A stretch of 64,000 bases of DNA from positions 1 through 64,000 of the forward strand of contig NZ_JAGSOH010000011.1 of the NCBI RefSeq assembly GCF_018139625.1. Direction: 5' to 3'. The translations under genes were made by a program, and so were the position numbers. The stretch comes from Actinospica acidithermotolerans (GTDB lineage: Bacteria; Actinomycetota; Actinomycetes; Streptomycetales; Catenulisporaceae). Below, piece after piece: positions 40,015-56,575 of this stretch. The notes under the pieces were generated by a model that made no database searches, was not told the DNA's origin, and was given only the letters and a program-made list of their open reading frames with translations. How positions within the stretch are numbered: the stretch's first letter is position 1; each line of letters starts with the position of its first letter.

Positions 40015-40036
40015 CGATTCTCCCAGCTGGAGGACT

Positions 40037-40344
40037 GATCGGGTTTCGTTGCGTGGGGGTGGCGAAGCTGTCGAGTCGCGGCGGGTGATCACGAAGGGTG
40101 TGTCCAGGCCGTATAAAGAAGCACGCCTCTGACCTGGACGTTCGCTACCGGCATCGACCTGGGCACCCTTCTGATTGCGCTCTCCGTGGAACTGACCGAC
40201 CGCATCGTGCCTTCGATGGAATCCGCCCCGGACCGCCCCGGGCGCCCGCCGGAGGTCACCGATGCCGACTCGTGTCTTCGTCCACGAGCCATCGGCCCGA
40301 CCAGCACCAGCGACCGCGCCACCCCTAGGCAACGAAACCCGATC
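40037..40344. mobile_element. 308-bp deletion derivative of an IS982-like element (MITE)
   Basis: The 28-bp ends 40037-40064 and 40317-40344 are inverted repeats with two mismatches, beginning GATCGGGTTTCGTTGC. Inside, on the plus strand, a stub reads TGIDLGTLLIALSVELTDRI and RPGRPPEVTDAD, which resembles the first 60 residues of IS982-type transposases; the rest is deleted. It fills almost all of the gap between two operon genes. It could be moved only by a transposase supplied in trans. Confidence 0.75.
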
Positions 40345-40350
40345 AATCGT

Positions 40351-41112
40351 CTAGGCGCTGAGGTAGCCGCCGTCGACCACGAGGGTCGTTCCGGTCATGT
40401 AGTCCGAGGCCGCCGAGACGAGGAACGCCACCGGGCCGACCATGTCCGCCACCGATCCCCACCGCCCGAGCGGAATCCGGGCGAGGAACGGCGCGCTGAG
40501 CGCCTCGTCGGTGATGAGCTGGTCGGTCATCTCCGTGTGGATGTAGCCGGGGGCAACCGCGTTGACGGTGATGCCGAAGGGCCCGAGCTCGGCGGCGAGC
40601 GCCTTCGTCAGACCCGCGACCGCGTGCTTCGAGGCGGTGTAGGCGATGCAGCGCCGGCCGCCCGTGATCGAGGTCAGCGAGGAGATGTTGATGATCTTCG
40701 CGCGCGCGTCGCGGGCCTTGCAGTTCTGCGCCATGAACTGGGCCAGCTTAAAGACGGCACTGGCATTGACATCAAGGACCTGGTTCCAGTCCTCCCAGGA
40801 GTAGTCCCACATCCACTCCCGGAGGTTGATCCCGGCGCAGTTGACGAGCACGTTCGGGCTGCCCCCGAGGGAGTCCTCCGCGAAGCGCCACAGCGCTTGC
40901 AGATCGTCTCGGACGATGCCCTCGAGGTCCATCCGGTACATCTTCGGGCCCGCGACGGTGTAGGTCCCGCTGGGCGCTTCGAGGCGGCTGTGGTACGTCG
41001 CCGCCACGGAGGCGCCCAGCTCGGCCAGGCCCCAGGCCAGTTCGGCGCCGATGCCGGATCCACCGCCGGTGACGATGATCCTGCTCGAGCGGATGTCGAA
41101 CAACTCGCGCAC
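40351..41112 (-). CDS. Short-chain dehydrogenase/reductase (classical)
   Basis: A 253-residue classical SDR: TGGGSGIGAELAWG near residue 15, NCAGINLREW near 90, catalytic YTASKHAVAGL near 155, and PGYIHTEMTDQL. It looks like gluconate/3-oxoacyl-type reductases, so it probably handles a polyol or beta-keto substrate. The start is a GTG at 41112 after AAGGGGG. It lies 12 bp downstream of the radical SAM gene, indicating one operon. Confidence 0.9.
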   Translation of the reverse strand: MRELFDIRSSRIIVTGGGSGIGAELAWGLAELGASVAATYHSRLEAPSGTYTVAGPKMYRMDLEGIVRDDLQALWRFAEDSLGGSPNVLVNCAGINLREWMWDYSWEDWNQVLDVNASAVFKLAQFMAQNCKARDARAKIINISSLTSITGGRRCIAYTASKHAVAGLTKALAAELGPFGITVNAVAPGYIHTEMTDQLITDEALSAPFLARIPLGRWGSVADMVGPVAFLVSAASDYMTGTTLVVDGGYLSA

Positions 41113-41124
41113 GCGCTGCCCCCT

Positions 41125-42132
41125 TCAGGACGTCTGTATCCGTGCGAAGAAATCCTCGGAGCGGATCGCGAAGGATTCGGAGCCGAACCGCTTCAGGTAC
41201 CCGGTGAAGATGTTCTCGACCTCGCTGCCGCTCATGTCCCTGGTCTCGTGCCCGTTCATGTTCGGGACGTTGCAGAAGCTGAGGTATCCCCCGGTCGAGA
41301 GCCGGAGCTGGTACAGGCCCTCCTGGCAGTAGAACGGGCACCCGTCGCACTCCGGCAGGCGCAGCGAGGTCGCGGCGCTCTTGGTGTAGGCGGTGAAGCC
41401 GTCGCGCGGGGACGTGCAGGACTCGATCGCAGCGCCGTACTCCTCGAAGAACCCGAACGTCGAGAACTCACCCCCGAGGTTCGCGGCGACGATGGCCTGG
41501 ACCTCCTTCGGGTCGACGTACTCTGAGAAGAAGTACTCCCGCGAGGCCGACTGATCCCGGTCGTAATAGTAGAGCAGCTCGAGGAACAGGATCTCCGGAA
41601 TCCCGAATGACCGGCATGTCTCGATGGCGAGCGGGATCTCGTCGATCTTCGACCGCACCGCGACCGTGTTGACCCGGATCTTCAGGAACTCCTGCGCCAT
41701 CCGCATGTTGTCCAGGACCTTGGGCAGGCGGTCCAGCCCCGTGCTCTCGGCGAAGCCCTCGCGGGTGAAGGAGGGGAGCGAGATCTTCAGGACGTTGAGT
41801 CCGGCCGAGGCCAGGTCGCGCACAAGGGCCGGACGCATGGTCACGCCGTTGGAGTTGATCTCCGGCACAGCGCCCAGTTCACGCACCTGCTCCACCAGCT
41901 TGGCGATGCCGCGGAAGAGCAGCGGCTCGCCGCCGGTGAACTGGACGTACTCTCCGCCGGTCGCCACGTAGGCCCTGAGCACCTTGAGCAGTTGCTCGCG
42001 CTCGAGGCTGGTGCCGAAGAGGTAATCCGGCTGGAAATTCTCCATCGCCTCCGGGGGACCACCGCAGAACTGGCAATGGAGCTGGCACTTTTCCGTGATC
42101 GATACGCGTAGCTTGGGCAGCCTCTTGATCAT
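41125..42132 (-). CDS. Radical SAM enzyme with C-terminal Cys cluster
   Basis: A 335-residue radical SAM protein. The CxxxCxxC motif binding the SAM [4Fe-4S] cluster is CQLHCQFC at residues 16-23; GGEPLLF follows near 65. The C-terminal region has further cysteines (PECDGCPFYCQEG near 260, SFCNVPN near 285), suggesting an auxiliary Fe-S cluster of SPASM or twitch type. It belongs broadly with MoaA-like enzymes. The ATG at 42132 follows GGGAG. The reaction is unknown; candidates include carbon-skeleton rearrangement, epimerisation or C-C bond formation on the cluster's product. Confidence 0.88.
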   Translation of the reverse strand: MIKRLPKLRVSITEKCQLHCQFCGGPPEAMENFQPDYLFGTSLEREQLLKVLRAYVATGGEYVQFTGGEPLLFRGIAKLVEQVRELGAVPEINSNGVTMRPALVRDLASAGLNVLKISLPSFTREGFAESTGLDRLPKVLDNMRMAQEFLKIRVNTVAVRSKIDEIPLAIETCRSFGIPEILFLELLYYYDRDQSASREYFFSEYVDPKEVQAIVAANLGGEFSTFGFFEEYGAAIESCTSPRDGFTAYTKSAATSLRLPECDGCPFYCQEGLYQLRLSTGGYLSFCNVPNMNGHETRDMSGSEVENIFTGYLKRFGSESFAIRSEDFFARIQTS

Positions 42133-42386
42133 GTCAACGACTCCCTTCTGGTTTCATTGTGAATATGGACTCTAACATGTGGTTCAATGAGTGTCTACCC
42201 TGAATTGCGTAGACTCTGCAAGACGGGATCATCATTCGGGGTTCAGTGGGTTGATTTCTCGCCCGATCCGGTCCATGCATTCTTTTTTCGGGTAGGAGTG
42301 ATCGTTGGGTGGCCGCCCGGCCTGGTTCTCGTGGATTTCCGGTTGTCTCGGCTGGACGTGATCGCGCTGGTCAGTTGGCCGGGCGG

Positions 42387-43811
42387 TCAGGCGAATACAG
42401 GAGTGGCGGCCGTGAGCAGTTTGTCGACCGGCTTTCTCACCAGCGCCAGATCCATTCTGTTGAACGCCGAGGAATACGCCCGGGCCGGTTCGCCAGCGAA
42501 GTAGCGCTCGAACAGGCTCTGCCGCCGGCCGAAGGACGAGCCGGTGAGTTCTCTGGCGATTGCGAACAACTGCACCCGGCTGAGACCTCCGATCGTCGCG
42601 CCTTGAAAATAGTGCTCGATAGTTTCCAGGACCTCTTCCTCCGCGTCCTCGACGGACGGCGTGAGCATCAGGCCGCCCGCTGCGATCTCCTCCAGCATGG
42701 TGAGCGCGGTCGGATAGAAGTCGTTGAAGTAGCGGAGCCCGGCGCTGATGGACCGGGACTGCGGCCGGACGGTGGGTCCGCTCGGCTCCGCGTGCGTGAT
42801 CGCGGTGGTCAGACAGGCCTCGGTGACGTCGAGCCAGGTGCTGATCCGGCCGAGCTTCTCGGTGATGTTCGGATATCCGGTGATCCCGATGGCCTGAGCC
42901 ACCGCCGTGCCGACGGCGAGCAGGAAGCGCCCCTTCACCAGCTGGCGCGTGAGCACCTGCTGTCCGACGTGCTCGAAGAATCCACACTCCGCCTTGAACT
43001 GGTTGCTCTTGTAGGGATCGGAGAAGATGAAGACCCGTTCCCAGGGAATCAGCACCCGGTCGAAGACCGCGACCGCGTCCATCTCATCGAACCGGCGGGC
43101 CAGTTGCCGGTCCGGGCCCGCGTACGAGCCGCGGCAGACGAACGAAAGGCCCTCGGTCCCGACCGGCACCGAGAACCCCAGGCCGAGATCGTAGTCGTCC
43201 TCGCGCAGGATGCGCCCGGCGCCCATCACGAGCAGTTCGTCGGCGAGCGGGGCCGACGTCGCCATCATCCGGGCACCGCTCACCCGCACGCCGTTCGAGT
43301 TCTCCCCGATGTACTGCAGTGCGATGGGACGCTCGCGGGTGACGAGGTCGCCCAACTCGCGGGAGCGGTCCGTCTGCGGGTTGGTGAAGCTGTGCGTGAC
43401 GAACAGGTTGCCGGACTTCACGTGCTCGTGGAACCTACGGACGTTGTCTGCGTATTCTCCGAACCAGTCGCTGTGCGCGTTCATCGCTGCCACCCACGTG
43501 TGCAGGTAGTCAGGACTTCGTCCGAGAAATCCGTAGGTGGCTTCCGCCAGAATCTCGTACGCACGGCCCCGTGCGCTCAGCGCGGCAGCGTCGACGGGTG
43601 GACGGAAGGCCGCGGGATAGCGCGTCGCCCCATCGTCGTACGCCAACTGCCCGGCCAGGTCCTCGCGCAGTTGCAGGTCGTACAGGGCACCGATCTCCAG
43701 CGCATTGCCCCGAAGGTGCTCGGAGCCGAGAACCCGGTCGACCAGCCGGCCGTTCAGCCAGATCCTCCGGTCGTCGTCGATGGCCGCGAAGTAGTCACGC
43801 GAATTCCTCAA
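42387..43811 (-). CDS. HpaB-family flavin-dependent monooxygenase
   Basis: A 474-residue enzyme of the 4-hydroxyphenylacetate 3-monooxygenase (HpaB) family, which uses free FADH2 to hydroxylate phenols or, in natural-product pathways, amines and carrier-bound aromatics. Recognisable pieces are the N-terminal SRDYFAAIDDDRRIWLNGRL, HSFTNPQTDRS (contacting flavin or substrate), RVLIPWERVFIF and the C-terminal RYFNDFYPTALTMLEEIA. The start is a TTG at 43811 with GGAGG just upstream. No flavin reductase (HpaC) is encoded nearby. It is separated from the radical SAM gene by 254 bp, so that gene may have its own promoter. Confidence 0.87.
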   Translation of the reverse strand: MRNSRDYFAAIDDDRRIWLNGRLVDRVLGSEHLRGNALEIGALYDLQLREDLAGQLAYDDGATRYPAAFRPPVDAAALSARGRAYEILAEATYGFLGRSPDYLHTWVAAMNAHSDWFGEYADNVRRFHEHVKSGNLFVTHSFTNPQTDRSRELGDLVTRERPIALQYIGENSNGVRVSGARMMATSAPLADELLVMGAGRILREDDYDLGLGFSVPVGTEGLSFVCRGSYAGPDRQLARRFDEMDAVAVFDRVLIPWERVFIFSDPYKSNQFKAECGFFEHVGQQVLTRQLVKGRFLLAVGTAVAQAIGITGYPNITEKLGRISTWLDVTEACLTTAITHAEPSGPTVRPQSRSISAGLRYFNDFYPTALTMLEEIAAGGLMLTPSVEDAEEEVLETIEHYFQGATIGGLSRVQLFAIARELTGSSFGRRQSLFERYFAGEPARAYSSAFNRMDLALVRKPVDKLLTAATPVFA

Positions 43812-43855
43812 TGCTCCTCCGTTCCGTCCTCAGCGGACAGGCTGATATGTGCGCG

Positions 43856-44575
43856 TCACAGCACTCGCCACCCGCTCGTCGCGTCGACATCGTCGCGAAT
43901 GCCGAGGAGCCCGGCCAGATCGTCGCCGAAGAACGGCGCCAGCAGATCGGTCCGGCTCAGGAAAGGCCGGCCGCCCAGCGTTCCGAAGAGCAGGTCCCAG
44001 AGGAAGATCGCCGTCCCCTCCGTGACGGGCGCGTAGTCGGCGACGATCTGGGAGACGACCTGTGCCTGGGGGCATGCGGTCTTTACGAAGTTGATCGCCT
44101 CTCTCGTGGCGAGAACCGTCCTGACCGACACCGGGCCACGCCAGGACGCGGGCGGCAGGGAGGAGAGGACTGACACCGCCGTCTTGCCCGAGAACATGAT
44201 GTCGTCGAGCACTGTGAGCGGCCCGCCGGCGAGCGGCAGAACCTGAAGGTCTTCCTCAACCTCCACGGCGGCCGTCTCGCCGTGGGTACCGTGTCTTCGC
44301 TTCGGATGAACGGCGATGACCGCGCAGTCGCGACTCGCGTGCGCGAAACGCGCCGCGAGGATCCGCGGGCGCGTGCCGACGACCAGCGCGGTGGCGCAGG
44401 CGCCGTGGGCGGTGGCTTCCCAGAGGCTCCGGAATCCGGCGAAGTCGATGTAGCTCACCTGTGCCGGAGCCGTTCGCGTGAGGCTGTCTATGCGGTGGCG
44501 GAGCGACCTCTCCATGCCCGCCATGTCGTCGCAGACGCCGAACAGCGGAAGGTCGTCGATGAGGTGCAGCTTCAT
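43856..44575 (-). CDS. Phosphoribosyltransferase-fold protein
   Basis: A 239-residue protein. LTVLDDIMFSGKTAVSVLSS near residue 130 matches the PRPP-binding loop of type-I phosphoribosyltransferases (hydrophobics, two acidics, then small residues), and ATALVVGTRPRILAARFAHA would be an earlier strand. The remainder is not recognisable. It could transfer phosphoribose, or be a PRT-fold enzyme recruited to another reaction. The ATG at 44575 overlaps the cupin stop (ATGA), so the two are translationally coupled. Confidence 0.65.
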   Translation of the reverse strand: MKLHLIDDLPLFGVCDDMAGMERSLRHRIDSLTRTAPAQVSYIDFAGFRSLWEATAHGACATALVVGTRPRILAARFAHASRDCAVIAVHPKRRHGTHGETAAVEVEEDLQVLPLAGGPLTVLDDIMFSGKTAVSVLSSLPPASWRGPVSVRTVLATREAINFVKTACPQAQVVSQIVADYAPVTEGTAIFLWDLLFGTLGGRPFLSRTDLLAPFFGDDLAGLLGIRDDVDATSGWRVL

Positions 44576-44925
44576 CGCGGCGCCTCGATGTCGAAGGCCT
44601 CGACCAGCACGATCCGATCCGTCTGGAGGAGGGACTGCGGCCAGTGCCAGTGCCGCAGTTCCAGCGCGTCCCTTTGGCACCGGAAGGCGTGTTCGCAGTT
44701 GGGCGACATGATGAACAGGTCGCCTGGATTGAGTTCCACCGCCTGCCCGGCCAGCGAGGCCAGGCCGGTGCCCGCCGCCACGAAGGTGATCTGTCCCATG
44801 ATCCGGTGCACGACGAGGGGATGCGGGCTGTCGGTCGTCAGCACCTGGGGCGGCTCGCCCAATGCGTCCAACATCGCGGTCAGGACGGGTCGCATCTCAT
44901 CGCTGACCTTCAGTGCTTGAAACAT
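44572..44925 (-). CDS. Cupin-domain protein
   Basis: A 117-residue single-domain cupin. The beta-barrel core reads VVHRIMGQITFVAAGTGLAS, AVELNPGDLFIMSPNCEHAF and ELRHWHWPQ. Several His residues could bind a metal. Small cupins act as isomerases, epimerases, dioxygenases or binding proteins; which applies here is unclear. The ATG at 44925 is 3 bp after the SDR stop, and the stop overlaps the PRT-fold gene. Confidence 0.75.
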   Translation of the reverse strand: MFQALKVSDEMRPVLTAMLDALGEPPQVLTTDSPHPLVVHRIMGQITFVAAGTGLASLAGQAVELNPGDLFIMSPNCEHAFRCQRDALELRHWHWPQSLLQTDRIVLVEAFDIEAPR

Positions 44926-44928
44926 GCT

Positions 44929-45666
44929 CTATCCCATCGTCAGGGTTCCGCAGACGTTGATGGCCTGGCCGTTGACCGCGCGCCCGGCCAGGGCGAGCCA
45001 GCGGATGACGTCGGCGACCTCGTCGGGCTCCAACAGGCGCCCGAGCCCGGTCCGACGGGCCATCGCGGCCTGGTATTCATCCGGACGCAGACCGTGCAGC
45101 CGCGAGATCTCGCGGCGCCCGTCGTCCGCCCCGGCGGTGTCCACCGCCCCCGGGCACACGCAGTTCGCCCGCACCCCGAACGGACCGACCTCCGCGGCCA
45201 GACTCTGGGTGTAGGCGATCAGACCGGCGTTCGCGGCGCTATAGGCGGGCAGGTAGGCGACGCCCGGTTTCGCAGCGGTTGACGACACGTTCACGATGGA
45301 GCCCTGACCTGCCGCGCGCATCGGCTCGACGACGACGCGCGTGAGCATCATCGGAGCGACGAGGTTCAACGTGAGGTCGTGCTGGATGTGGTCGGGCGTG
45401 ATCGCGATGGCCGTCGCTGGCTGGGCTCCCCCGGCGTTGTTGACCAGCACCTCCGGCGTGACCCCGCGCGACGTCAGGTACTCGGCCAGCTCCTGGCACG
45501 CGGCCGCCACCGTCGACCCCTCGGCGAGGTCCGCCTTGATGAACATCGCGCAGTGCTGAGGCCGGGTCAACCCGAGCACGATGCAGTCGTGGCTGTCGGA
45601 GAATCGGCGCAGCACCGCCGCGCCGATCCCGCGAGAGGCCCCTGTGATGATCGCTGTCGGCCTCAT
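44929..45666 (-). CDS. SDR-family oxidoreductase with Asn in place of catalytic Lys
   Basis: A 245-residue SDR: TGASRGIGAAVLRRF at the N-terminus, NNAGGAQPA near 90, Ser in VNVSSTAAK, and the active-site Tyr in LPAYSAANAGLIAYTQ. The YxxxK Lys is Asn (Y-S-A-A-N), so proton relay and cofactor orientation should be altered. It may be a catalytically changed SDR (dehydratase, cyclase or binding role) or inactive. The C-terminus (RAVNGQAINVCGTLTMG) is normal. The ATG at 45666 lies 3 bp after the ThDP enzyme stop, in the same operon. Confidence 0.87.
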   Translation of the reverse strand: MRPTAIITGASRGIGAAVLRRFSDSHDCIVLGLTRPQHCAMFIKADLAEGSTVAAACQELAEYLTSRGVTPEVLVNNAGGAQPATAIAITPDHIQHDLTLNLVAPMMLTRVVVEPMRAAGQGSIVNVSSTAAKPGVAYLPAYSAANAGLIAYTQSLAAEVGPFGVRANCVCPGAVDTAGADDGRREISRLHGLRPDEYQAAMARRTGLGRLLEPDEVADVIRWLALAGRAVNGQAINVCGTLTMG

Positions 45667-45669
45667 GCG

Positions 45670-47379
45670 TCAGTCTTCGATCCAGCCGCGCAGGCATGCC
45701 GGCACCTCGTCCGGATGACAGAGCACCTCTACGCCGACCGTTCCGCGCGTCGCCAGCGCGGCCGCCAGCACCTCGTCGACCTGGTCGGCGTGGTCGATAC
45801 GGAAGGTGCGAAGCCCCATCGCGCTCATCCACTGGGCGAAGTCGATGCTGGGGATGTCGGTTCCCATGGGTTCGCGATCGAAGTCCAACCGCTGGCCGAG
45901 GCGGACGCGGCCGTGGCTGCGGTTGTTGAAGACGACGACGAGGAGGTTGAGTTCGTGCTCGGCGGCGACGGTCAGTTCGGCGCCGTGCATGAGCATGGAG
46001 CCGTCCCCGGTGACGCAGACTGTGAGCGGCCCTCGCCCTGCGGCGCCTTCCTGACCGGCCGCCATGGCCATGCCGACCGACGCGCCGATCGCCCAGCCCA
46101 TGGCGCCCACGCCGCAGTTGAGCTGTACTCCACCGGTTCGGCCGGCGCGGCACAGCGAGATCGTGTCGAGCCAGTGGTTGCCGGCGTCCGGGATGACCAC
46201 GGCGTCCGGAGGCAGCATCCGGCTCAGCCGGGAAATCGTGCCGGCCACGGACGGCATCCCGTGCGACTCGGGCTTCTGACGCAGCGCTGCTCGCTCGGCG
46301 CGCTTCTGGAAGGCCGACACAAGCTCGGCTGCGGAGCAATCCGGCTCTGCGGCGGTGTCGGTACCGCCTGCGGCTATGGCCGACGTCAGCGCCGACACGG
46401 CTTCCCGCGCGTCTCCGACGATGCCGATATCGGCCCGCATCCGGAAGCCGACCTGCTCGGCGGAGATGTCGATGCGAATCGTCGCGGCGTTCTCGAGGAC
46501 CGCTGCCAGCGGGTTCGCGTAGTAGCGCGACAGGCTGGCGCCGACGACAAGGACGACGTCCGGCTGGTAGGACGACACCGCTTGGGCGATGTCAGACCGT
46601 TGACCCGGACCGAAGTGGCCGAGCAGCATGGGGTGATCGCGAGGCAGGCAGGACACTGCCTTCGTCGACGTCACGACGACCGCTCCCAACTGCGTGGACA
46701 GTCGAGCGATCTCCGGTTGCGCGCGGGCGAGCATGCTGCCCCAGCCGGCGAGAATCAGCGGGCGGCGCGCTGAGCGAAGCAGTTCCGCCGCAGCGAGGAC
46801 GCATGGCGCGGCCGGCACGTCGCCGACGGTCGGCGGGGAGGCCGACCGCGACGGCGGAACCGGGATGTCGAGCTGCTGCTGGTCCAGGGGGATGCTCAGG
46901 TGCACGGGGCCCCGGCGTCCGCTGAGCGCCAACGTGATCGCGGTGTCGATCATGAACGCGGCGTTCTCCGGGGCGACGATCTCCAGCGCGGTCTTGGTGA
47001 TGGGCGCGAGCAGGGCGGCCGGGGAGGCCGATCGGTCCAGCAGGAAAGACTCCTGGAACACTCCGCGGCCGAAGGTCGTGGGCGAGCCCTGGCCCGAGAT
47101 GACCAGCATGGGCACGGAATCCTGATAGGCCGATGCCACGCCGGTCGCCGTATTGGTGACGCCGGGGCCGGACGTCGTCAGGACGACGCCGAGGTTTCCG
47201 GTCGCACGGGCGTAACCGTCGGCCATGAACGCGGCGCCGCCCTCGTGGCGGGCCAGGATGATCTGGGGATCTTTCCGGAACGCGTGCCATACCGGCATCA
47301 CGAAGTAGCCCGGCACGCCGAAGGCCCGGGTCACCCCCGCAGCGGCCAATTGCTGGTGCAGATAGCCCGTCAATATCAC
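45670..47379 (-). CDS. ThDP-dependent enzyme, acetolactate synthase-like
   Basis: A 569-residue three-domain thiamine diphosphate enzyme. The activating Glu is in ARHEGGAAFMADGYARATG near residue 45; TSGPGVTNTATGVA follows; the ThDP-Mg motif runs from VTGDGSMLMHG to VVFNNRSHG near 430-460. It fits the acetolactate synthase/carboxyethylarginine synthase/benzaldehyde lyase group and could decarboxylate a 2-oxo acid and join the acyl anion to another carbonyl, building the product's carbon skeleton. The start is a GTG at 47379, 4 bp after the aminotransferase stop. No small regulatory subunit is present, which argues against branched-chain amino acid synthesis. Confidence 0.88.
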   Translation of the reverse strand: MILTGYLHQQLAAAGVTRAFGVPGYFVMPVWHAFRKDPQIILARHEGGAAFMADGYARATGNLGVVLTTSGPGVTNTATGVASAYQDSVPMLVISGQGSPTTFGRGVFQESFLLDRSASPAALLAPITKTALEIVAPENAAFMIDTAITLALSGRRGPVHLSIPLDQQQLDIPVPPSRSASPPTVGDVPAAPCVLAAAELLRSARRPLILAGWGSMLARAQPEIARLSTQLGAVVVTSTKAVSCLPRDHPMLLGHFGPGQRSDIAQAVSSYQPDVVLVVGASLSRYYANPLAAVLENAATIRIDISAEQVGFRMRADIGIVGDAREAVSALTSAIAAGGTDTAAEPDCSAAELVSAFQKRAERAALRQKPESHGMPSVAGTISRLSRMLPPDAVVIPDAGNHWLDTISLCRAGRTGGVQLNCGVGAMGWAIGASVGMAMAAGQEGAAGRGPLTVCVTGDGSMLMHGAELTVAAEHELNLLVVVFNNRSHGRVRLGQRLDFDREPMGTDIPSIDFAQWMSAMGLRTFRIDHADQVDEVLAAALATRGTVGVEVLCHPDEVPACLRGWIED

Positions 47380-47383
47380 GTGC

Positions 47384-48430
47384 TCACCCCGTTTCCAGTT
47401 CCTGCGCGACCTTTTCCAGCGCCGTCCGGATGCTGTCCATCTCGTCCGCGTGTCCGGCGCTGATGCGCACGTGGTCCGGCCACCCCATGTCGGTGAGATC
47501 GCGGACGAGCACGCCGTGAACGGCCAGCCTCTCGCTGACGACGTGGGCCGGCCAGGGCAGCTTGACCAGCGTGAAGTTGGTAACCGACGGATTCACCTCG
47601 GCCCATGGCTGGGTCGTCAGCCATGCCTCGAAGCTGCGGACGGCTGTGCGAGTGTGCCCGCGGACGACGTCGGTGAACTCGGCGTCGGCCAGACTCGCCT
47701 CGGCTGCGGCCAGCGCTACCCGGTTGACGTTGAAGACCAGCACATCCTTGAGGCGCCGCATCCGCTCGCAGATGTCGGGCCGCGTCATCGCGTAGCCGCA
47801 GCGCAGGCCGGCGAGACCGTGGATCTTGGAGAAGGTGCGCAGGACGATCACCGGCAGGCCGGCCCGCACGTGCGTTATCGCCGACGTGGCTTCGTCCGGA
47901 TCCGTGAATTCGATGTATGCCTCGTCGATGACGAGAACAGCGCCGCGCTGGTGCGCGACCCGGGCCAGATACTCGATCTCGGCCGGATCCAGCGCAACGC
48001 CCGTCGGATTATGCGGATTACATATGTAGACGACGCTCCGAGAGCGCATCGCACTCGCGCTGGCCTCGGTGTCCATCCTCAGATCCCGTAACGGAAGAAT
48101 GATCGGGGATTGCCTGGCCGCGCGGACGGCGTTCACGTGTCCGGGATATGTTCGGTCGCCGACAATTGCCCCGGCGGACGGATCGACCAAAGCCAGAGCC
48201 GAAATCAACAGGAGTTCATCGATGCCGTTTCCGACGATCACGTGATTCGGCGTCAGATTCTCGCGTCCGGCGATAGCGGCCACAAGCCGCGCCGCCGCGG
48301 CATCGGGGTAGCGATTGAGTCTGTCGGCCTCGTCGAGCGCCGCCTGCCGGGCCCGGGGGCTGCAGCCGAACCCGCTCTCGCTCAGGTTGAGCCGCGCGAT
48401 CGGGTCGCTGGGTGAAGCTATGACCTGCAT
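47384..48430 (-). CDS. PLP-dependent aminotransferase (histidinol-phosphate aminotransferase-like)
   Basis: A 348-residue fold-type I aminotransferase: RYPDAAAARLVAAIAG, GNGIDELLLISALAL (PLP phosphate region), NPHNPTGVALDP, VIDEAYIEF (Asp to PLP nitrogen) and TFSKIHGLAGLRCGY with the PLP Lys. It resembles HisC but stands alone without other his genes, so it probably serves the cluster. The ATG at 48430 (MQVIASPSDPIARLNLSES) fits the family's start; an in-frame TTG at 48484 abuts GGAGGA too closely. It is the first large gene of the minus-strand run. Confidence 0.88.
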   Translation of the reverse strand: MQVIASPSDPIARLNLSESGFGCSPRARQAALDEADRLNRYPDAAAARLVAAIAGRENLTPNHVIVGNGIDELLLISALALVDPSAGAIVGDRTYPGHVNAVRAARQSPIILPLRDLRMDTEASASAMRSRSVVYICNPHNPTGVALDPAEIEYLARVAHQRGAVLVIDEAYIEFTDPDEATSAITHVRAGLPVIVLRTFSKIHGLAGLRCGYAMTRPDICERMRRLKDVLVFNVNRVALAAAEASLADAEFTDVVRGHTRTAVRSFEAWLTTQPWAEVNPSVTNFTLVKLPWPAHVVSERLAVHGVLVRDLTDMGWPDHVRISAGHADEMDSIRTALEKVAQELETG

Positions 48431-48917: not shown

Positions 48918-50783
48918 GTGGGGAAGAGAGATCGCGTCCTGGCCTGGCTTCGCCTGGCACGACTGATTCCGCTGGCCGGACCCACGGCCTACCTGCCCAT
49001 GGGGGTGCTGGCCCTCGCGTACGGTGTGCTGCCGTCGGTGTTCACCGTGGCGATGGGCCTGGTGGTGCGCACGCTCACCGCCGGCCCGGTCGCGCGCATC
49101 AGCCCGGCCGAGATCCTCTCGAGGGCAGGCACCGACCTCAAGATCGGCTTCGCCGCGCTGGTCCTGCAGCAGGCGCTCACGCCGCTCCAGGAAGCGGTCG
49201 CGGTCCTGGCCGCGCGCCGGATCGACCGGCACACCCTCGCGGACGTCCTGCGCACCGCGCTGCGATCCCCACTGGAGCACGTGGAGGACGAGCGAGCCGT
49301 AGACGCGGTCGCAGAGGTGAGCGACGCCTTCGTCCGCAACGCTCCGACGCCGGGCGTCGCCGCCGCCGCGCTGCCCCAGCTTGCCGGGCGCTACCTGCAA
49401 CTCGTCAGCGCCGTGGTACTGGTCGCGGTCACCATCTCGGTCGGGGTGGCGGTTCTGCTGCTCATCGGCGCGGTCATCCTCCGGTACGGACAGCGTGGGT
49501 CCTTGGACAAGTTCGCCGCCGAGCGGGCGAAGCTCGCCGGTGCCCGGCGCCGAATGAACTACATCGAGATGCTCGGCATCGAGCCACGCGCGGCCAAGGA
49601 GATCAGGGTCCTCAACCTGCTGCCCTGGCTGCGGCAGCGCTACGACCGGGAGGTCGAGGGATACCTGGTCCCGCTGTGGCGTCGCCGGCGCGCGGTGCTC
49701 TTCCGCCCGTTCCTGGTCTACACCGGCATCGGCTTCCTCATCGCGGTGACGGCCTTCGTCCTGCTCGGGCAGGGTTTCGAGCCCGCGCAGGGCGTGGTGT
49801 TCCTGGCCGTCGCGATCCAGGCGATCCTGGTGCCGCTGCGCTTCGGCACCTACTTCCCCGAATGCGACATGCAGACGCAGTACGGGATGCAGTGCCAGTC
49901 CACGATCGCCGAGTTCCGCGCGTCGGTCGGCCGTCCGGTCGCCCGGCCCGAGCCCGGCGCGCGGCCGACGGCGGCGGCGGTCGAACCGGGCGCGTTGCAC
50001 GCGATCCGGTTCCGCGAGGTCAGGTTCGGCTACGGCCGACGCGGCGCCGAGGTGCTGCGCGGACTCGACTTCGAACTGCCGGCCGGCCGCTCGACCGCTC
50101 TGGTCGGGGTCAACGGCGCCGGCAAGACCACGGTCGTGAAGCTGCTTTCCGGGCTGTACGCGCCGACCGGCGGCCGTATCACGGTCGACGGACGCGACCT
50201 GGCCGGACTCGACCCCGCCGGGTGGCGGCGTGAGGTGGCCGTCATCTTCCAGAATTCCGTTCGGTTCGACCTGACGCTGCGGGAGAACCTGTTGCTGGGG
50301 GCCGCGCACCGTCCGGTCGACCTGGACGCGATGCACGCGGCGCTGGCCCGGGCCAGCGCGACCGACATCGCCGACCGCCTGCCGCACGGCTTGGACACCG
50401 TCCTGTCGCCGGAGTACACCCGGGGCACCGGCCTGTCCGGCGGGCAGTGGCAGCGCATCGCCCTCGCCCGCGCGTTCTACGCGGTCGGACAGGGTGCCAC
50501 CGTGCTCGTGCTGGACGAGCCGACCGCCCAGCTCGACGTGCGCGCGGAGGTCGACTTCTACGAACGATTCCTGGAGCTGACCGAGGGACTGACCACTTTG
50601 GTGATCTCGCACCGCTTCTCCACCGTCCGCCGCGCCGACCGGATCGCGGTGCTGTCCGAGGGCCGGATCGGCGAATCGGGCAGCCACGACGAGCTGCTCG
50701 ACGCGGACGGCACCTACGCCTCGATGTTCCGCGTGCAGCGCGAGAGGTTCACCGCGGCGCTCGGCCGGGGGGATGACCGGTGA
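48918..50783 (+). CDS. ABC exporter, fused membrane and ATPase domains (subunit 1)
   Basis: A 621-residue half-transporter. Residues about 1-340 form the membrane domain with hydrophobic helices (PMGVLALAYGVLPSVFTVAM, VVLVAVTISVGVAVLLLIGA, and FLIAVTAFVLLG). The C-terminal ATPase has Walker A VGVNGAGKTTVVKLL, Q-loop VIFQNSV, signature LSGGQWQRIALARA, Walker B VLVLDEPTAQLD and switch His in ISHRFSTVR. The GTG at 48918 lies 7 bp after GGAGGAA. The stop overlaps the second transporter start, so the two likely form a heterodimer that exports the cluster's product and gives self-resistance. Confidence 0.9.
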   Translation: MGKRDRVLAWLRLARLIPLAGPTAYLPMGVLALAYGVLPSVFTVAMGLVVRTLTAGPVARISPAEILSRAGTDLKIGFAALVLQQALTPLQEAVAVLAARRIDRHTLADVLRTALRSPLEHVEDERAVDAVAEVSDAFVRNAPTPGVAAAALPQLAGRYLQLVSAVVLVAVTISVGVAVLLLIGAVILRYGQRGSLDKFAAERAKLAGARRRMNYIEMLGIEPRAAKEIRVLNLLPWLRQRYDREVEGYLVPLWRRRRAVLFRPFLVYTGIGFLIAVTAFVLLGQGFEPAQGVVFLAVAIQAILVPLRFGTYFPECDMQTQYGMQCQSTIAEFRASVGRPVARPEPGARPTAAAVEPGALHAIRFREVRFGYGRRGAEVLRGLDFELPAGRSTALVGVNGAGKTTVVKLLSGLYAPTGGRITVDGRDLAGLDPAGWRREVAVIFQNSVRFDLTLRENLLLGAAHRPVDLDAMHAALARASATDIADRLPHGLDTVLSPEYTRGTGLSGGQWQRIALARAFYAVGQGATVLVLDEPTAQLDVRAEVDFYERFLELTEGLTTLVISHRFSTVRRADRIAVLSEGRIGESGSHDELLDADGTYASMFRVQRERFTAALGRGDDR

Positions 50784-52543
50784 ACAGCATCCGCAGCGCC
50801 GGGGAGATCCTGCGCATGGCCTGGCGGATGGACCGGGTCAAGATGGTCAAGGCGGCCGTGCTGCTGGGCGGCGGCTTCCTCGCCACGCCGCTGGCCGCGC
50901 TCGGCCTGCGTGCGTTCACCAACAGCCTGCTCGCCGGCGAAGCGGACCGGGCCACGCTGCTCGGCCTCCTCCTCGCCGTGCTGCTGATGCTCGAGCTGAT
51001 GGGCACCCACTTCGCCCATCTGTCGTACTTCGAGCTCGGCGAGATGACCCAGGTCCACCTGCAGCACCGCCTGTTCACCGCCACCAACTCCGTGGTGTCG
51101 CTGGCCCGCCGGGAGCAGCCGGACTACGCCAACGACCTGCAGGTCACTCAGTCCCGGGCGTGGAACCTCAACCGCGCGCTCGAGGCCACCCTCCAGTTCG
51201 GCGGCCTCCTGGTCCAGCTGTGTGTGAGCACGTTTCTGCTGGCCCGGCTGAACTGGGTGCTCGTCCTGGTGCCGTGCCTGTCGGTACTGCTGATCCTCGC
51301 AAGCGCGCGGGCGCAGCGGGCCGTCAACCTCTCGGAGGAGCGGGCCGCCGAGCCGGCCCGCCGGGCCCGGCACTTCCTGCGCCTGGCGACCACCCCGGAG
51401 AGCCTGGTCGAGCTGCGGCTCCTGGGCCTGGAGGACGAGGTGGTGGAGCGGCACACGGCGGAGTGGGACGCGACCACCCGGCAGATGTGGCGCGGCCAGA
51501 GCCGGGCGGCGCTGATCAAGAGCCTGGGTCAGCTCGGCTTCGCCCTCGGATATGCGGGCGCGCTGATCTTCGTGTTCCGGCAGATCGCCGGCGACACGGC
51601 CACGGTCGGCGATTTCGTCTTGGTGCTCGCGCTCGCGGTGCAGACCACCATGCAGATCAGTACTGCGGTGACCCTGCTGGCCGTGCTGCAGCAGTCGTCG
51701 GTGACGATCGGGCGGATCACCCGGCTGGCCGACGCGGAGCCCGGCCCGGCCCCCGCGCACCGTGAGCCGATCCCCGGGGCCGGACTGCGCCTCGAGCACG
51801 TCACGTTCAGCTACCACGGGGGCGCCGAGCCGGTTCTGAGGGACGTGAACCTGTCGATCCCGCCCGGCGCGAGGGTCGCGGTGGTCGGCGAGAACGGCGC
51901 CGGCAAGACGACCCTCGTCAAACTCATGTGCGGGTTGTACCAGCCGACCTCCGGCCGGATTTCGCTCAACGGGCACGCGGTCGACACGGGCGAGATGTCG
52001 GTGGCAGCCCTCTTCCAGGACTTCGCCAGGGTCGAGTTGTCGTTGCGCGACAGCATCGGCATCGGGAAGTGCCGGGGCGCCGAGCCCGCGGACGACGGCG
52101 CGGTGCACGCCGCCTTGGAGCGGGCGGACACCACGGAGTTGGTCGACCGCCTGCCCGACGGCTTGGACGGCATCCTGGGCACCCACTACACCGACGGCGC
52201 GGAACTGTCCGGCGGCCAGTGGCAGCGCGTCGGCCTGGCGCGTGCGCTGGTGCCGGAGTCCCCGGCGTTGCTGATGCTGGACGAGCCGGCGGCCGCACTC
52301 GACCCGACGGCCGAGCACGCCCTCTTCGAGCGGTTCGCGGTGGCCGCGGGGGCGCAGGAGCGCCGCAGCGCGATCACCGTCTACGTCTCGCACCGGTTCT
52401 CGACCGTACGGATGGCCGACCTCATCGTCGTGATGGAGCGCGGAAGGGTCGCCGCGGCCGGCACGCACGACGAGCTCATGCGCGCCGGCGGCACGTACGC
52501 CGAGCTCTACACCATGCAGGCCCGGGCCTACGCCGACGTCTGA
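50780..52543 (+). CDS. ABC exporter, fused membrane and ATPase domains (subunit 2)
   Basis: A 587-residue half-transporter starting at a GTG at 50780 that overlaps the preceding stop (GTGA). Membrane helices include AVLLGGGFLATPLAALGLRA and LVLVPCLSVLLILA. The ATPase is complete: Walker A VGENGAGKTTLVKLM, Q-loop ALFQDFA, signature LSGGQWQRVGLARA, Walker B LLMLDEPAAALD and His in VSHRFSTVR. Both subunits have intact motifs, so both ATP sites may be active, unlike exporters with one degenerate site. It is the partner of the protein encoded at 48918. Confidence 0.9.
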   Translation: MNSIRSAGEILRMAWRMDRVKMVKAAVLLGGGFLATPLAALGLRAFTNSLLAGEADRATLLGLLLAVLLMLELMGTHFAHLSYFELGEMTQVHLQHRLFTATNSVVSLARREQPDYANDLQVTQSRAWNLNRALEATLQFGGLLVQLCVSTFLLARLNWVLVLVPCLSVLLILASARAQRAVNLSEERAAEPARRARHFLRLATTPESLVELRLLGLEDEVVERHTAEWDATTRQMWRGQSRAALIKSLGQLGFALGYAGALIFVFRQIAGDTATVGDFVLVLALAVQTTMQISTAVTLLAVLQQSSVTIGRITRLADAEPGPAPAHREPIPGAGLRLEHVTFSYHGGAEPVLRDVNLSIPPGARVAVVGENGAGKTTLVKLMCGLYQPTSGRISLNGHAVDTGEMSVAALFQDFARVELSLRDSIGIGKCRGAEPADDGAVHAALERADTTELVDRLPDGLDGILGTHYTDGAELSGGQWQRVGLARALVPESPALLMLDEPAAALDPTAEHALFERFAVAAGAQERRSAITVYVSHRFSTVRMADLIVVMERGRVAAAGTHDELMRAGGTYAELYTMQARAYADV

Positions 52544-53010
52544 CGGCTTCATTTCCACCCCTTTCGCGCATGGCCTTCCCGCCATTCGGCGAGTGTCCAC
52601 CGCGAGCCGGTTGGTTCCGGAACCTAACCCGTGTCCCGCCGGCGGGACACGGGACCGAGTAAGTGTGCTGTTTATGATCTTTCCCGGCTCGGACCCTCAG
52701 GCAAGGGCGTTTTCGCCACACGCACCCCACTAGACAACCTTGACGACGGTGGGGATTATAGAATGATGACCAGGGGGGGAGTCTTGCTGGCCATCCCACG
52801 GGCGCACGACGGGGTTCTCAGGCAACTCAGGACTCATCATCCTCAGACGGGGAGGTACATCCACGGCTGGAATACACACACCATGAGCTCTGTCGGGGCT
52901 TGCCCACAACGTGTCACGCCCCCGATTCGGCGCGTTTCCTTGAATTCCTATGCCATCCGTACACATGTCGACGATCATTTCGAATTGATGGGAAGTCAGG
53001 AGAACAGCTT
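52544..53010. other. Leader region of the LmbU-type regulator gene
   Basis: About 465 bp without a supported gene. It contains the large palindrome at 52628-52653 and a less GC-rich stretch (about 52735-52765) that may hold a promoter. A short frame beginning with ATGATG at 52764 was not considered convincing. Confidence 0.5.
52628..52653. promoter_or_regulatory. 26-bp perfect palindrome with CGCCGGCG core
   Basis: A perfect, loop-free 26-bp palindrome centred between 52640 and 52641, with inner part TGTCCCGCCGGCGGGACA. The 14-bp core TCCCGCCGGCGGGA (52634-52647) recurs at 56539-56552. As I recall, LmbU recognises a CGCCGGCG palindrome in the lincomycin cluster, and an LmbU-type gene starts 360 bp downstream. 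It might instead serve as a terminator stem for the exporter genes, which end 84 bp upstream. Confidence 0.65.
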
Positions 53011-53853
53011 GTGGCCACCCGCATGGCAGTTCAGGCCGCGGACCGCGGAATCCTCTCCCCCGAAATCCTTCGCACGCGGCCGCGGGGCGTGCGGGCCACG
53101 CATGGGGCGCCGCGGGGCCCGGAGCACTGTGCGGCGGGCAAGGAGGCTCGGCACCCGCCGGGGACCGTCGATGCCCTGCCGGGCGATTCGGTCCGGTGCC
53201 CGACCGCCTCGCTGACCAGCCTCCGGCTACCGCACAAGCTCACGCTGGAGCGATGGATCGGCATCGGGCGAGACCTGTCGACGACGACCAGTTCCGCAGC
53301 CTGGTGGTTGGGCGACTGGCTGATCTACGGGGAAGCGGCCTTCACCGGCCGGTACCGGAACGCGATCGAGCAGACCTCGCTCGACTACAAGACGCTGCGC
53401 AACTACGCCTGGGTCGCGCGCAGGTTCCCGCCGGACCGCCGGCACGAGACGCTCAGCTTCGGCCACCACGCCGAGGTCGCCGCGCTGGCGGCACCCGAGC
53501 AGGACTTCTGGCTGCGCAAGGCGGCGACGCTGTCCTGGTCGCGCAATAAACTCCGGCGCATCGTCCGGGAGAGCCTGCGCGAGCGAGAGGAGTCACCGAT
53601 TGCCCGGCACCGCGACGGGGCGCCGCACGCGATCGCGCCCGGCCGCCTGCCGCCGCTCCCCCACGAGGCGGACGACCCCCCGCCGGCCGAACGGCTGAGC
53701 GTGCGGTTGACGCACCAGCAACTCGCCGCCATCCGCCAGGCCGCCGACTGCGCCCAGGTGCCGGTCGACACCTGGGCCGCCAGGATCCTGCTGAAGGAGG
53801 CCGCGCGCAGCGCCGTCGGGAAAGGCGGTGACCGGGAGCGGCCCGACGCATAG
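53011..53853 (+). CDS. LmbU-family transcriptional regulator
   Basis: A 280-residue regulator. The central part (residues about 70-190) has the LmbU pattern: LRLPHKLTLERWIGIGRDL, AAWWLGDWLIYGEAAF, YKTLRNYAWVARRF, LSFGHHAEVAALAAPEQDFW and WSRNKLRRIVRESL. LmbU-type proteins are cluster-situated activators of antibiotic pathways (lincomycin, hormaomycin, others). The C-terminus (RLSVRLTHQQLAAIRQAADC) looks like a short ribbon-helix-type segment. I chose the GTG at 53011, 8 bp after AGGAG; the frame is open upstream to 52900. It is probably the master activator of the surrounding cluster. Confidence 0.88.
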   Translation: MATRMAVQAADRGILSPEILRTRPRGVRATHGAPRGPEHCAAGKEARHPPGTVDALPGDSVRCPTASLTSLRLPHKLTLERWIGIGRDLSTTTSSAAWWLGDWLIYGEAAFTGRYRNAIEQTSLDYKTLRNYAWVARRFPPDRRHETLSFGHHAEVAALAAPEQDFWLRKAATLSWSRNKLRRIVRESLREREESPIARHRDGAPHAIAPGRLPPLPHEADDPPPAERLSVRLTHQQLAAIRQAADCAQVPVDTWAARILLKEAARSAVGKGGDRERPDA

Positions 53854-53869
53854 GGCTGATGTACGCCGC

Positions 53870-53900
53870 GGGGCGTTTCGGCGGCAGCCGGGAACGCCCC
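53870..53900. terminator. Hairpin between convergent regulator and UGP genes
   Basis: GGGGCGTT (53870-53877) pairs with AACGCCCC (53893-53900) across a 15-nt GC-rich loop, in the 47-bp gap between two convergent genes. It is likely a bidirectional terminator. Confidence 0.6.
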
Positions 53901-54947
53901 TCAGTGCGTTCCGTGCAGATCCTCCAGGGCGGTGCGCAGGACCGCCTCGTGCCTGACCATCTCAGCGCGCGTCTTCAGCGGCAGGAAGCGCCGCTCCGAA
54001 ACGCCCAGGAAGGCGGCCGGGAGCAGGGTCGCCAGGTGGTGCAGCGGACACTCGATCTGCACCGCCACCCGCCCCTCGACGTCCTTCTCGTAATAGCGCC
54101 ACGGCAAGGGCAGATCGTCGTCGGTGACGTCGGTGTCGAGGATGAACGTGTTCGTGTTGAGCGGCAACGGCGGGAGCAGTTCCGCGCGCCCGCCGAGTTC
54201 CGCGGCGTCCAGCAGCAGCGGACGGCCGTCGAGCCGCACCACCCGCGCGCCGGAGCTCGCCGGGTTGGGCGGACGGACCACTTCCACGCTCACCCTGCGC
54301 CCCCGGAGCAGGTGGCTGCCGACGACCAGCGGATCCGGCCGGGCCAGCAGGTTGTCGAGATTCGAGATCAGCAGGTGGCGTACGCCGGACCCGCGCAGCC
54401 GGTCCAGCACACCGGACCGGACCAGCGCCCCCGGCAGTTCGCCGTGCCCGGTGGGATACGGCGAGACCTCCCCGTCGCCGGTCCGGAACACCTCGCCGTC
54501 CGGGGTCAGCCGGAGTGCGAAACCCTGCTGGAACAGAAAGGGTTCGGGCAGTCCGAGTTCGGCCACGTGCGCACGGATCGGTTCGTGCGTCGCCCACCCG
54601 GTCATCACGGCGACCGGCACCGCGCCGCCGTACCGGTCGGCGGCGGCTTGCGCTTGTCGAAGCTTGATCTCAAGGAACGTCTGACCGTCGAGCACCGGGA
54701 CCGTGGCCTTGACCGCGCCGCCGAAGCGTGTCGCCATCCCCCCGCCGAGCACGACCACCGCGACCTCGCCGCGGCTCAGGGCCGCGGTGCCGGCCGCTTC
54801 GGCGGCCGCGTGCTCCGCCGAGCCCGGCGGCGGCAGGTCGACGACGTCCTCCGGCTCCGGGGGCGCCAACGCGCCGAGCACCACGTTGGCCGCCGCCGAA
54901 AGCCGTCCGCGGGCAACCGCTTCACTGAAGTCCTCTGCCACGTTCAC
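53901..54947 (-). CDS. UTP-glucose-1-phosphate uridylyltransferase-like protein
   Basis: A 348-residue nucleotidyltransferase of the eukaryotic-type UGPase/UDP-sugar pyrophosphorylase group. VVLGGGMATRFGGAVKATVP near residue 60 is the nucleotide-binding loop; LLISNLDNLLARPDP near 170 matches the UGPase NLDN motif; NTNTFILD lies near 260. It should make UDP-glucose or a related UDP-sugar, the usual donor for the GT8 enzyme encoded in the same run. The start is a GTG at 54947 overlapping the ThDP enzyme stop (GTGA), so they are translationally coupled. This is not the bacterial GalU family. Confidence 0.8.
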   Translation of the reverse strand: MNVAEDFSEAVARGRLSAAANVVLGALAPPEPEDVVDLPPPGSAEHAAAEAAGTAALSRGEVAVVVLGGGMATRFGGAVKATVPVLDGQTFLEIKLRQAQAAADRYGGAVPVAVMTGWATHEPIRAHVAELGLPEPFLFQQGFALRLTPDGEVFRTGDGEVSPYPTGHGELPGALVRSGVLDRLRGSGVRHLLISNLDNLLARPDPLVVGSHLLRGRRVSVEVVRPPNPASSGARVVRLDGRPLLLDAAELGGRAELLPPLPLNTNTFILDTDVTDDDLPLPWRYYEKDVEGRVAVQIECPLHHLATLLPAAFLGVSERRFLPLKTRAEMVRHEAVLRTALEDLHGTH

Positions 54948-56470
54948 GGTCGCACCGTGCTCTGCACCATGGCCACCGCCGGCAGCGGGCCGTCGAGCAG
55001 GGTCCGGAGACGGTCCGCGCCCTGCTCGCCCTGCTCGTCGACGTGCCAGGCGTCGCACACCGCGATGCCGCAGGCCCGGATCAGCCCGGCCAGGTCGACC
55101 GCGGGCAGTGGCTGCCCGCCGGTCTTGGCCTGCACCCCGTTCACGAGCACCACGCTCAGCAGCGGCAGACCGTGCTCGGCGGCGGACACGAGCCCGCCGA
55201 GCCCGCTGTGCACGACCGCGTAGTCGCCGATCACCGCGATGGACCGGCGGCCCGCGCGAGCCGCCCCGCCCGCCACCGCGATGGCCGAGCCGAGACTCAG
55301 CGCGACGTCCACCGCGTCGTACGGCGGGTAGCACAGCCTGATCGAGGAACCCACATCGGCCGCCACGAACGCGCCGCCGCGATGCAGTTCCGCGATGGCG
55401 TGGAAGACCTGCTCGTACGGGCCGAGTGGCGGGACCACGGCGGACTTGCGCTCGATATCCGTCCACGAGCAGGTCTGATCGGTCTCGATCACCTTCAACA
55501 GGTCGGCCCTGGTGACCGTCCCCCACAACGGCAGATGGCCGGTGAGCCGACCGCGCAGCCGGCCCGGATCGGCCATCCGGCCGGCCAGCCACTGCTCGGC
55601 CACCGGGTCCGGCTCCTCGACCACGATCGTGCGGTCGTGCGCCTCCGCCCACGCCACCACGGAGGCGGGCAGCGGAACCGTCGCTTCGACCGCGAGCACG
55701 CAGCAGTTCATCTCGACGGCGGTGATCGCGGTTCCGCCGACGGCGATCACCGCCGTCCGGCAGTCCCCGCCGCAACGGTCGAGGATCAGACCGGCCCGGT
55801 CGACGAAGGAGCGGATCAGCGGCGCGGTGACCAAAAAGCGGCGTTGATGGCGGCCGAATTTCGTCAGCTTGTGCGCCACGTCCGGGTCGAGGCGAGGAGC
55901 CGGCGAACGGGTCGGCACCCTGATCGGCGAGGCGGGAGCAGCTTCGGGCCGAGCGCTGCAGTCCCGGTGCAGCGTCGGGGTGATCCGGATCAGCACCGGC
56001 ACCCCAGCCTGCTCGGAGAGTTCGACGGCGCTCTCAACCAGGTGATCCGCATCGCCGAGCAACGTCGGTTCCAGCACCGGCACCCCGGCTATCTCGGCCA
56101 ACCGCCGCGAGTCCTGCACCGACGTCGAGCCGTTGGCGTCCGGGTCGTCGCCCACCACGAGCAGCACGGCGGCACCGGTCGAGTGCACCGTGGCGTTCAG
56201 CAGCGAGTCCAGCGCGATGTTCAGGCCGTTGTGCTTGAACACCACGGCGGAGCGCACGCCCGCGGCGGACAGGCCGACGGCCTCCTCGACGGCGGACTTC
56301 TCGTTGACCGCCCACTCGAAGCGCTCCGCGCCGTGCTCGGCCAGAATCTCGGCGACGTGCGTGCTCGGCGCACCCGCTACCGCCGAGGTGCGATCGATGT
56401 GCCGGAGCAGCGCCTGCGCCAGATGCCGGCAAGCCTGCGCGTCCGGGGTCTTCGCCCGATCGTCGGACAT
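54944..56470 (-). CDS. IorA-like ThDP enzyme lacking the ferredoxin domain
   Basis: A 508-residue thiamine diphosphate enzyme. The N-terminal half matches the alpha subunit of indolepyruvate ferredoxin oxidoreductase: FEWAVNEKSAVEEAVGLSAA, VVFKHNGLNIALDSLLNA and TSVQDSRRLAEIAGVPVLEP. The ThDP-binding half has AVIGDYAVVHSGLGGL and VVLVNGVQAKTGGQPLP. IorA normally ends in a two-cluster ferredoxin domain and pairs with IorB; here the protein stops after the ThDP domain and no IorB is nearby. A non-redox decarboxylase role, as in phosphonopyruvate decarboxylases, is more likely. The ATG at 56470 follows GAAGGTGAGGA. Confidence 0.8.
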   Translation of the reverse strand: MSDDRAKTPDAQACRHLAQALLRHIDRTSAVAGAPSTHVAEILAEHGAERFEWAVNEKSAVEEAVGLSAAGVRSAVVFKHNGLNIALDSLLNATVHSTGAAVLLVVGDDPDANGSTSVQDSRRLAEIAGVPVLEPTLLGDADHLVESAVELSEQAGVPVLIRITPTLHRDCSARPEAAPASPIRVPTRSPAPRLDPDVAHKLTKFGRHQRRFLVTAPLIRSFVDRAGLILDRCGGDCRTAVIAVGGTAITAVEMNCCVLAVEATVPLPASVVAWAEAHDRTIVVEEPDPVAEQWLAGRMADPGRLRGRLTGHLPLWGTVTRADLLKVIETDQTCSWTDIERKSAVVPPLGPYEQVFHAIAELHRGGAFVAADVGSSIRLCYPPYDAVDVALSLGSAIAVAGGAARAGRRSIAVIGDYAVVHSGLGGLVSAAEHGLPLLSVVLVNGVQAKTGGQPLPAVDLAGLIRACGIAVCDAWHVDEQGEQGADRLRTLLDGPLPAVAMVQSTVRP

Positions 56471-56538
56471 GATCCTCACCTTCTTGCCACCGGCGCGCCG
56501 GTGCACAGGATGAATGCGCGGTCGATGAAGCAGCGGTG

Positions 56539-56552
56539 TCCCGCCGGCGGGA
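56539..56552. promoter_or_regulatory. TCCCGCCGGCGGGA palindrome upstream of the IorA-like gene
   Basis: An exact second copy of the 14-bp core found at 52634-52647, here in a 17-bp identity (GTGTCCCGCCGGCGGGA, 56536-56552). It lies in the 105-bp gap between the GT2 and IorA-like genes, about 70 bp upstream of the latter. It is a probable binding site for the LmbU-type regulator and suggests an internal promoter for the IorA-like and UGP genes. Confidence 0.65.
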
Positions 56553-56575
56553 AAGTCGCGAAGTCGGGGCCCGGT

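Follow-up and report, generated by a model that had tools for sequence, protein, structure and literature searches.

The closest described systems are the LmbU-family regulators, which switch on gene clusters for clinically relevant antibiotics. An N-terminal auto-inhibitory extension is listed as a trait of cluster-situated members of this family, along with a C-terminal ribbon-helix-helix-like element and homodimer formation. In S. lincolnensis, LmbU forms a homodimer and binds DNA through a helix-turn-helix; its target in the promoters of lmbA and lmbW is a palindrome with CGCCGGCG at its core, and it acts as a repressor at its own promoter (PMC6510168). The form of the motif used for scanning is the 10-bp TCGCCGGCGA, with 176 matches in one genome (PMC10763038), and a 2025 review gives it as CGCCGGCG only (PMC12945683). 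NovE, a further LmbU-family protein, has been reported to regulate novobiocin synthesis positively, going by its citation in PMC7014725. An LmbU regulator paired with an operator is thus of a known kind; what is new here is a 16-18 bp operator, its marking of LmbU clusters and its copies within LmbU coding sequence. The extended 16-18 bp motif was printed in no LmbU paper found in the open-access literature.

The window, a stretch of 64,000 nucleotides from Actinospica acidithermotolerans, was found to carry two exact copies of the 14-mer TCCCGCCGGCGGGA, designated site 1 and site 2 (Table 1). The sequence-only reading had described this pair, the enclosure of the first copy in a 26-bp perfect palindrome (CCCGTGTCCCGCCGGCGGGACACGGG), a 17-bp stretch common to both sites (GTGTCCCGCCGGCGGGA) and an LmbU-type gene nearby, all of which were recovered; its placement of both copies between genes also agrees with the gene calls. 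Site 1 contains the 18-bp LmbU-box consensus TGTCCCGCCGGCGGGACA with 0 mismatches, and site 2 (TGTCCCGCCGGCGGGAAA) departs from it where A replaces the last C of the 16-mer. As in the lincomycin cluster, the sites are CGCCGGCG-core palindromes upstream of cluster genes (PMC6510168; PMC10763038), here within promoter regions of the cluster to which the regulator belongs, and the LmbU-family regulator is cluster-situated; its action on its own promoter is reported for the lincomycin system and would be expected here. The published 10-bp form was unmatched at both sites, which instead read CCGCCGGCGG.

Table 1. Coordinates of sites, candidate promoters and genes in the window
Feature	Position	Strand	Basis or remark
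Site 1, 26-bp perfect palindrome	52628-52653	.	Sequence
Site 1, exact 14-mer	52634-52647		
Site 1, 18-bp consensus match	52632-52649		
Intergenic gap holding site 1	52544-53010		Gene calls
Site 2, 18-bp box	56537-56554	.	One consensus mismatch
Site 2, exact 14-mer	56539-56552		
Intergenic gap holding site 2	56471 (or 56507)-56575		Gene calls
Candidate lmbU promoter, TTGACG-16-AATGAT	52740-52767	+	Promoter-like sequence
Overlapping candidate lmbU promoter, TAGACA-17-GATTAT	52731-52759	+	Promoter-like sequence
lmbU-family regulator gene, 280 aa	53011-53853	+	NF038070 (LmbU_fam_TF), 207 bits, cut-off 125
UDPGP-type nucleotidyltransferase gene, second downstream of site 2	53901-54947	-	PF01704, 92 bits
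IorA-like thiamine-diphosphate enzyme gene, first downstream of site 2	54944-56470	-	TPP_enzyme_C
ABC exporter gene	50780-52543	+	Partner gene 48918-50783
Run of biosynthetic genes	38977-48076	-	
Transposase gene	17969-19651		DDE domain
IS21-like pair	32516-34913		IstB ATPase

The palindrome of site 1 begins 84 bp past the end of the ABC exporter gene and lies 370 bp from the start of lmbU, with a candidate lmbU promoter approximately 90 bp downstream of the site; two such promoter-like sites were found, against 0.1 expected in shuffled sequence. Site 2 is located 22 bp from the stop of a GT2 gene and 66 bp upstream of the IorA-like ATG (56470), which is preceded in the sequence by a plausible ribosome-binding site. 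The earlier suggestion that the sites directly control the sugar/thiamine-diphosphate gene run needs narrowing, since site 2 falls inside this minus-strand run and can drive its last two genes only. The first of these scored 195 bits against TIGR03336, under the cut-off of 651. Two glycosyltransferases are also among the minus-strand neighbours of lmbU. Elsewhere in the window, a minus-strand run encodes an HpaB-type hydroxylase, a radical SAM enzyme, two short-chain dehydrogenases, a three-domain thiamine-diphosphate enzyme and an aminotransferase; it is likely to be the rest of the cluster, and no LmbU box was found within it. A transposase gene and an IS21-like pair were also observed.

Within the window, copies of TCCCGCCGGCGGGA at up to two mismatches numbered 2, against 2.28 in shuffles, so that counting within the window alone gives weak evidence. 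The 8-bp core occurs 18 times in the window, mostly in coding sequence; the earlier identification of CGCCGGCG as the LmbU element therefore stands as to its published identity (PMC6510168), but the core is not the informative part of the site. A genome-wide scan had been proposed as the check, with a motif that proved common or lay in coding regions counting against the idea. The 7.89-Mb genome yielded 3 exact, 2 one-mismatch and 134 two-mismatch copies of the 14-mer; an even spread of the 134 two-mismatch copies over the 819 variants possible at that distance would predict approximately 0.16 exact copies. All three exact copies were intergenic and situated at the only two loci carrying LmbU-family genes, where the chance of a random site falling within 3 kb of either locus is about 0.0017, and of three in three about 5e-9.

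There are three LmbU-family genes in this genome, namely that of the window and two adjacent genes on contig C77 (L004:5079-7102, G000:C77). The third copy of the 14-mer (site 3) follows the stop codon of one C77 gene by approximately 20 bp and precedes by approximately 250 bp an operon whose products are an aminotransferase, a chalcone/stilbene-synthase-type ketosynthase and an enoyl-CoA-hydratase-family protein; this operon may represent a 3,5-dihydroxyphenylglycine precursor set. With site 3 placed between the second LmbU gene and this operon, one kind of box appears to act in two clusters. A genome-wide scan in which the centre was relaxed to N4 was dropped, having returned 5 matches in this genome (two LmbU-locus sites among them) versus 4 for the reversed control; the relaxed centre loses specificity in this GC-rich genome.

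The operator was then defined from a sample of 79 LmbU loci across the Actinobacteria with 6-kb flanks; its consensus comes from loci of other species, with the same core used as seed. The 14-mer was common across these loci and nearly always extended to the 16-mer GTCYCGCCGGCGRGAC, with 36 exact and 17 one-mismatch copies of the motif, whereas seven control palindromes of similar make-up gave 0 copies at zero or one mismatch. GTCYCG and CGRGAC half-sites were found 58 times at a spacer of 4, whereas each of the other spacers between 0 and 12 gave 0-2 copies, and the spacer-4 pair was present in 50 of the 79 loci. The best-conserved part of the consensus is YGTCYCG-N4-CGRGACR; the pattern searched for prescribed the two half-sites but left spacing, centre and flanks unconstrained. 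The centre is usually CCGG, but CTGG, TCGA and others occur, and nearly all spacer-4 copies have T or C before GTC and A or G after GAC. Independent support for the outer bases came from the lists of one- and two-mismatch copies, whose departures lie nearly all in the centre. Site 1 fits this consensus with 0 mismatches and site 2 with 1.

Judged from these loci, it is the outer GTCYCG...CGRGAC half-sites that are conserved, with CGCCGGCG as the middle and uninformative alone. The conserved unit is hence 16-18 bp, unlike the 8-bp core or the 10-bp form published for lincomycin LmbU, and it differs further in having C/G rather than T/A at the flank and in its centre being the less conserved part. 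As the family consensus allows Y/R at the flank, the published TCGCCGGCGA is too narrow. No spacer-4 site was detected in the 6-kb flanks of 29 of the 79 loci, such that some LmbU proteins may use other sites. When 39 sites were classified with a simple codon-usage gene caller, 17 were in tandem gaps, 11 in divergent gaps and 10 inside called LmbU genes, and the remaining one was scored as convergent at a contig end; no site fell in a gene other than one for LmbU, even though coding calls covered 84% of the sequence. Two of the divergent sites (L064 and L098) are better read as lying inside LmbU genes that the caller missed.

The 16-mer was also found to track LmbU genes between genomes. Among 12 genomes of the same family, it occurred in 5/5 with an LmbU gene and in 1/7 without (G008). 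The corresponding figures were 14/19 and 10/129 for 148 genomes of the order (Fisher 1e-9), where 40 of the 46 sites in LmbU-bearing genomes were within 60 kb of an LmbU gene, and 11/14 and 11/282 for 296 genomes of the class. With duplicates removed, the combined counts were 23/29 and 20/382 (p=1e-20); the genomes are related, so these p-values overstate independence, and the pattern was repeated across many genera. The flanking Y/R rule was obeyed by 36 of 38 copies in LmbU loci versus 5 of 21 in genomes lacking LmbU (the copies of the 20 such genomes plus that of G008), the latter rate being that of chance, as chance matches should show.

A further group of copies is located within LmbU genes themselves. 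The codons for an SRRRD motif just after the recognition helix read G TCY CGC CGG CGR GAC, the full 16-mer, in 12 of 20 LmbU genes, for which the codon usage of these loci predicts 2.2%, and less with the preceding G counted. This excess has p=1.5e-15, or 1.5e-8 after collapse into 15 groups, close relatives having been collapsed by eye. The 12 sites comprise the 10 inside called LmbU genes together with L064 and L098 (L091:6231-6246, L064:6435-6450, L098:536-551 and nine further loci). Two of these genes, L091 and L098, combine the rare codons TCT (2%) and CGA (5%), a pairing that preserves the palindrome. Since the pattern was noticed only after looking, a second set of LmbU genes is the fairer test, though small: the exact 16-mer was present in 2 of 4 SRRRD genes, a third had a centre variant, and L102 supplied one more TCT/CGA pair. 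NovE has relatives in aminocoumarin producers, and at the S. niveus locus L091 and the S. rishiriensis locus L064 the box is inside the regulator coding sequence, whereas the window gene has DRRHE in place of SRRRD and no box there.

With their location, rarity, conservation, fixed spacing and co-occurrence with LmbU genes directly observed, the two palindromes are very probably operators of an LmbU-family transcription factor; binding by the window protein, the geometry of the dimer, and activation as against repression at each site we infer. An LmbU dimer probably binds the 18-bp YGTCYCG-N4-CGRGACR through a ParB/Noc-like helix-turn-helix, with each subunit taking one GTCYCG half-site and variation in the 4-bp centre being tolerated. 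The symmetry of the box and its constant spacing would both fit such a dimer on two half-sites. Autoregulation would then run through site 1, upstream of lmbU, and control of the two-gene IorA-like/nucleotidyltransferase operon through site 2. Counting against this reading are the rather long distance from site 1 to the lmbU start, the one consensus base that site 2 is missing, the LmbU loci that carry no such box in their flanks and the individual weakness of the fold matches described below.

The palindromes could instead be operators belonging to a different regulator found alongside LmbU genes, or to one of the C77 paralogues, a reading that we consider improbable. The same box is common to three LmbU-family genes in the genome, one C77 gene directly adjoins site 3, and conservation alone cannot assign a paralogue to each copy. 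However, no other regulator family was seen to track the motif in an unsystematic look, and the helix-turn-helix of the window protein is intact: it keeps the LRNYAWVARR helix (LRNYAWVAR) with R137, R143 and R144, of which the first two are near-invariant and the third invariant across 44 homologues, whereas in one C77 paralogue N replaces this near-invariant recognition-helix arginine at the position of R137. Window residue R137 probably corresponds to R101 of the published LmbU.

Less probable again is that the palindromes are transcription terminators. All three copies in this genome lie 10-90 bp past a stop codon, site 1 could form an 11-bp RNA stem folding at -25.3 kcal/mol (z -2.8), and some sites in other species have arms of at least 5 pairs beyond 16 bp. 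Yet neither site has a U-tract/T-run or a terminator call, site 2 folds no better than shuffles (z +0.5), divergent gaps that have no stop codon nearby hold 11 sites of related loci (including L064 and L098, better read as intragenic), and others are inside LmbU coding sequence. Moreover, a terminator needs neither one fixed sequence nor restriction to LmbU-bearing genomes. Site 1 alone, with its 11-bp stem, may have a dual operator/terminator role. That these are chance GC-rich palindromes is extremely unlikely and, at the level of the family, already refuted, for whilst the 8-bp core is common, with its 18 copies in the window, the extended motif is rare genome-wide, control palindromes are absent, the spacing is fixed and co-occurrence with LmbU is strong.

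Returning to the LmbU operator reading, the protein that would bind these sites was modelled with AlphaFold2, which predicted a high-confidence helical DNA-binding domain (residues 79-201), a low-confidence N-terminal extension of about 60 residues and a C-terminal two-helix element (235-270) without a clear strand. The solved folds nearest to the predicted domain were those of ParB, Spo0J and Noc, matches that are weak individually (best E 0.17) and consistent as a group; a template taken from Spo0J served in the 2019 LmbU paper as well. Searching the sequences of solved structures with the family profile gave no relative, and a dedicated LmbU family is missing from Pfam, where DUF1016_N is weakly matched by 30 of the 44 members. 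The parS and NBS sites of ParB and Noc are, like the LmbU box, palindromes read by dimers of a helix-turn-helix protein, in their case of the ParB family, to which the predicted LmbU domain is most similar. The parS sequence is TGTTTCACGTGAAACA, and the outer TGTYYC/GRRACA is common to it and the LmbU box, although the centre between the outer blocks is 2 bp longer in the latter. LmbU also differs from ParB and Noc in being without a CTPase domain, and is a cluster-situated regulator rather than a partition protein. This model-based resemblance is offered as a lead only.

The broader proposal is that LmbU regulators recognise an 18-bp, parS-like palindrome by means of a ParB-type domain, that in some lineages the coding sequence of the regulator includes a working operator for it (the SRRRD codons), and that the box predicts LmbU-controlled clusters genome-wide; taken as a whole, we regard it as evenly balanced. 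If true, an intragenic copy would act as a built-in feedback roadblock, the regulator binding within its own gene. These copies suggest an unrecognised feedback arrangement and a DNA-level constraint on a protein motif. The 8-bp core is too common for target prediction, whereas the 16-18 bp box, nearly absent where LmbU is absent, would render LmbU regulons predictable from sequence and provide a direct means of switching on silent clusters.

The length of the palindrome arms varied between loci. Pairing beyond 18 bp was overall slightly above expectation, and a minority of sites, comprising site 1 and about eight in other loci, had arms of at least 5 pairs beyond the 16-mer, more than by chance. 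In a group of syntenic LmbU loci (L026, L028, L030, L035, L055, L057, L058 and L083) the box is near 8.5-8.9 kb, with that of L058 near 5.7 kb. It lies 33-52 bp after a small gene (in L028, one for a 77-aa carrier protein) and, on those contigs that extend further, precedes a gene of approximately 1.1-1.2 kb (in L028, an FAD-dependent oxidoreductase). In several boxes of this group the perfect arms are unusually long, at 28-36 bp.
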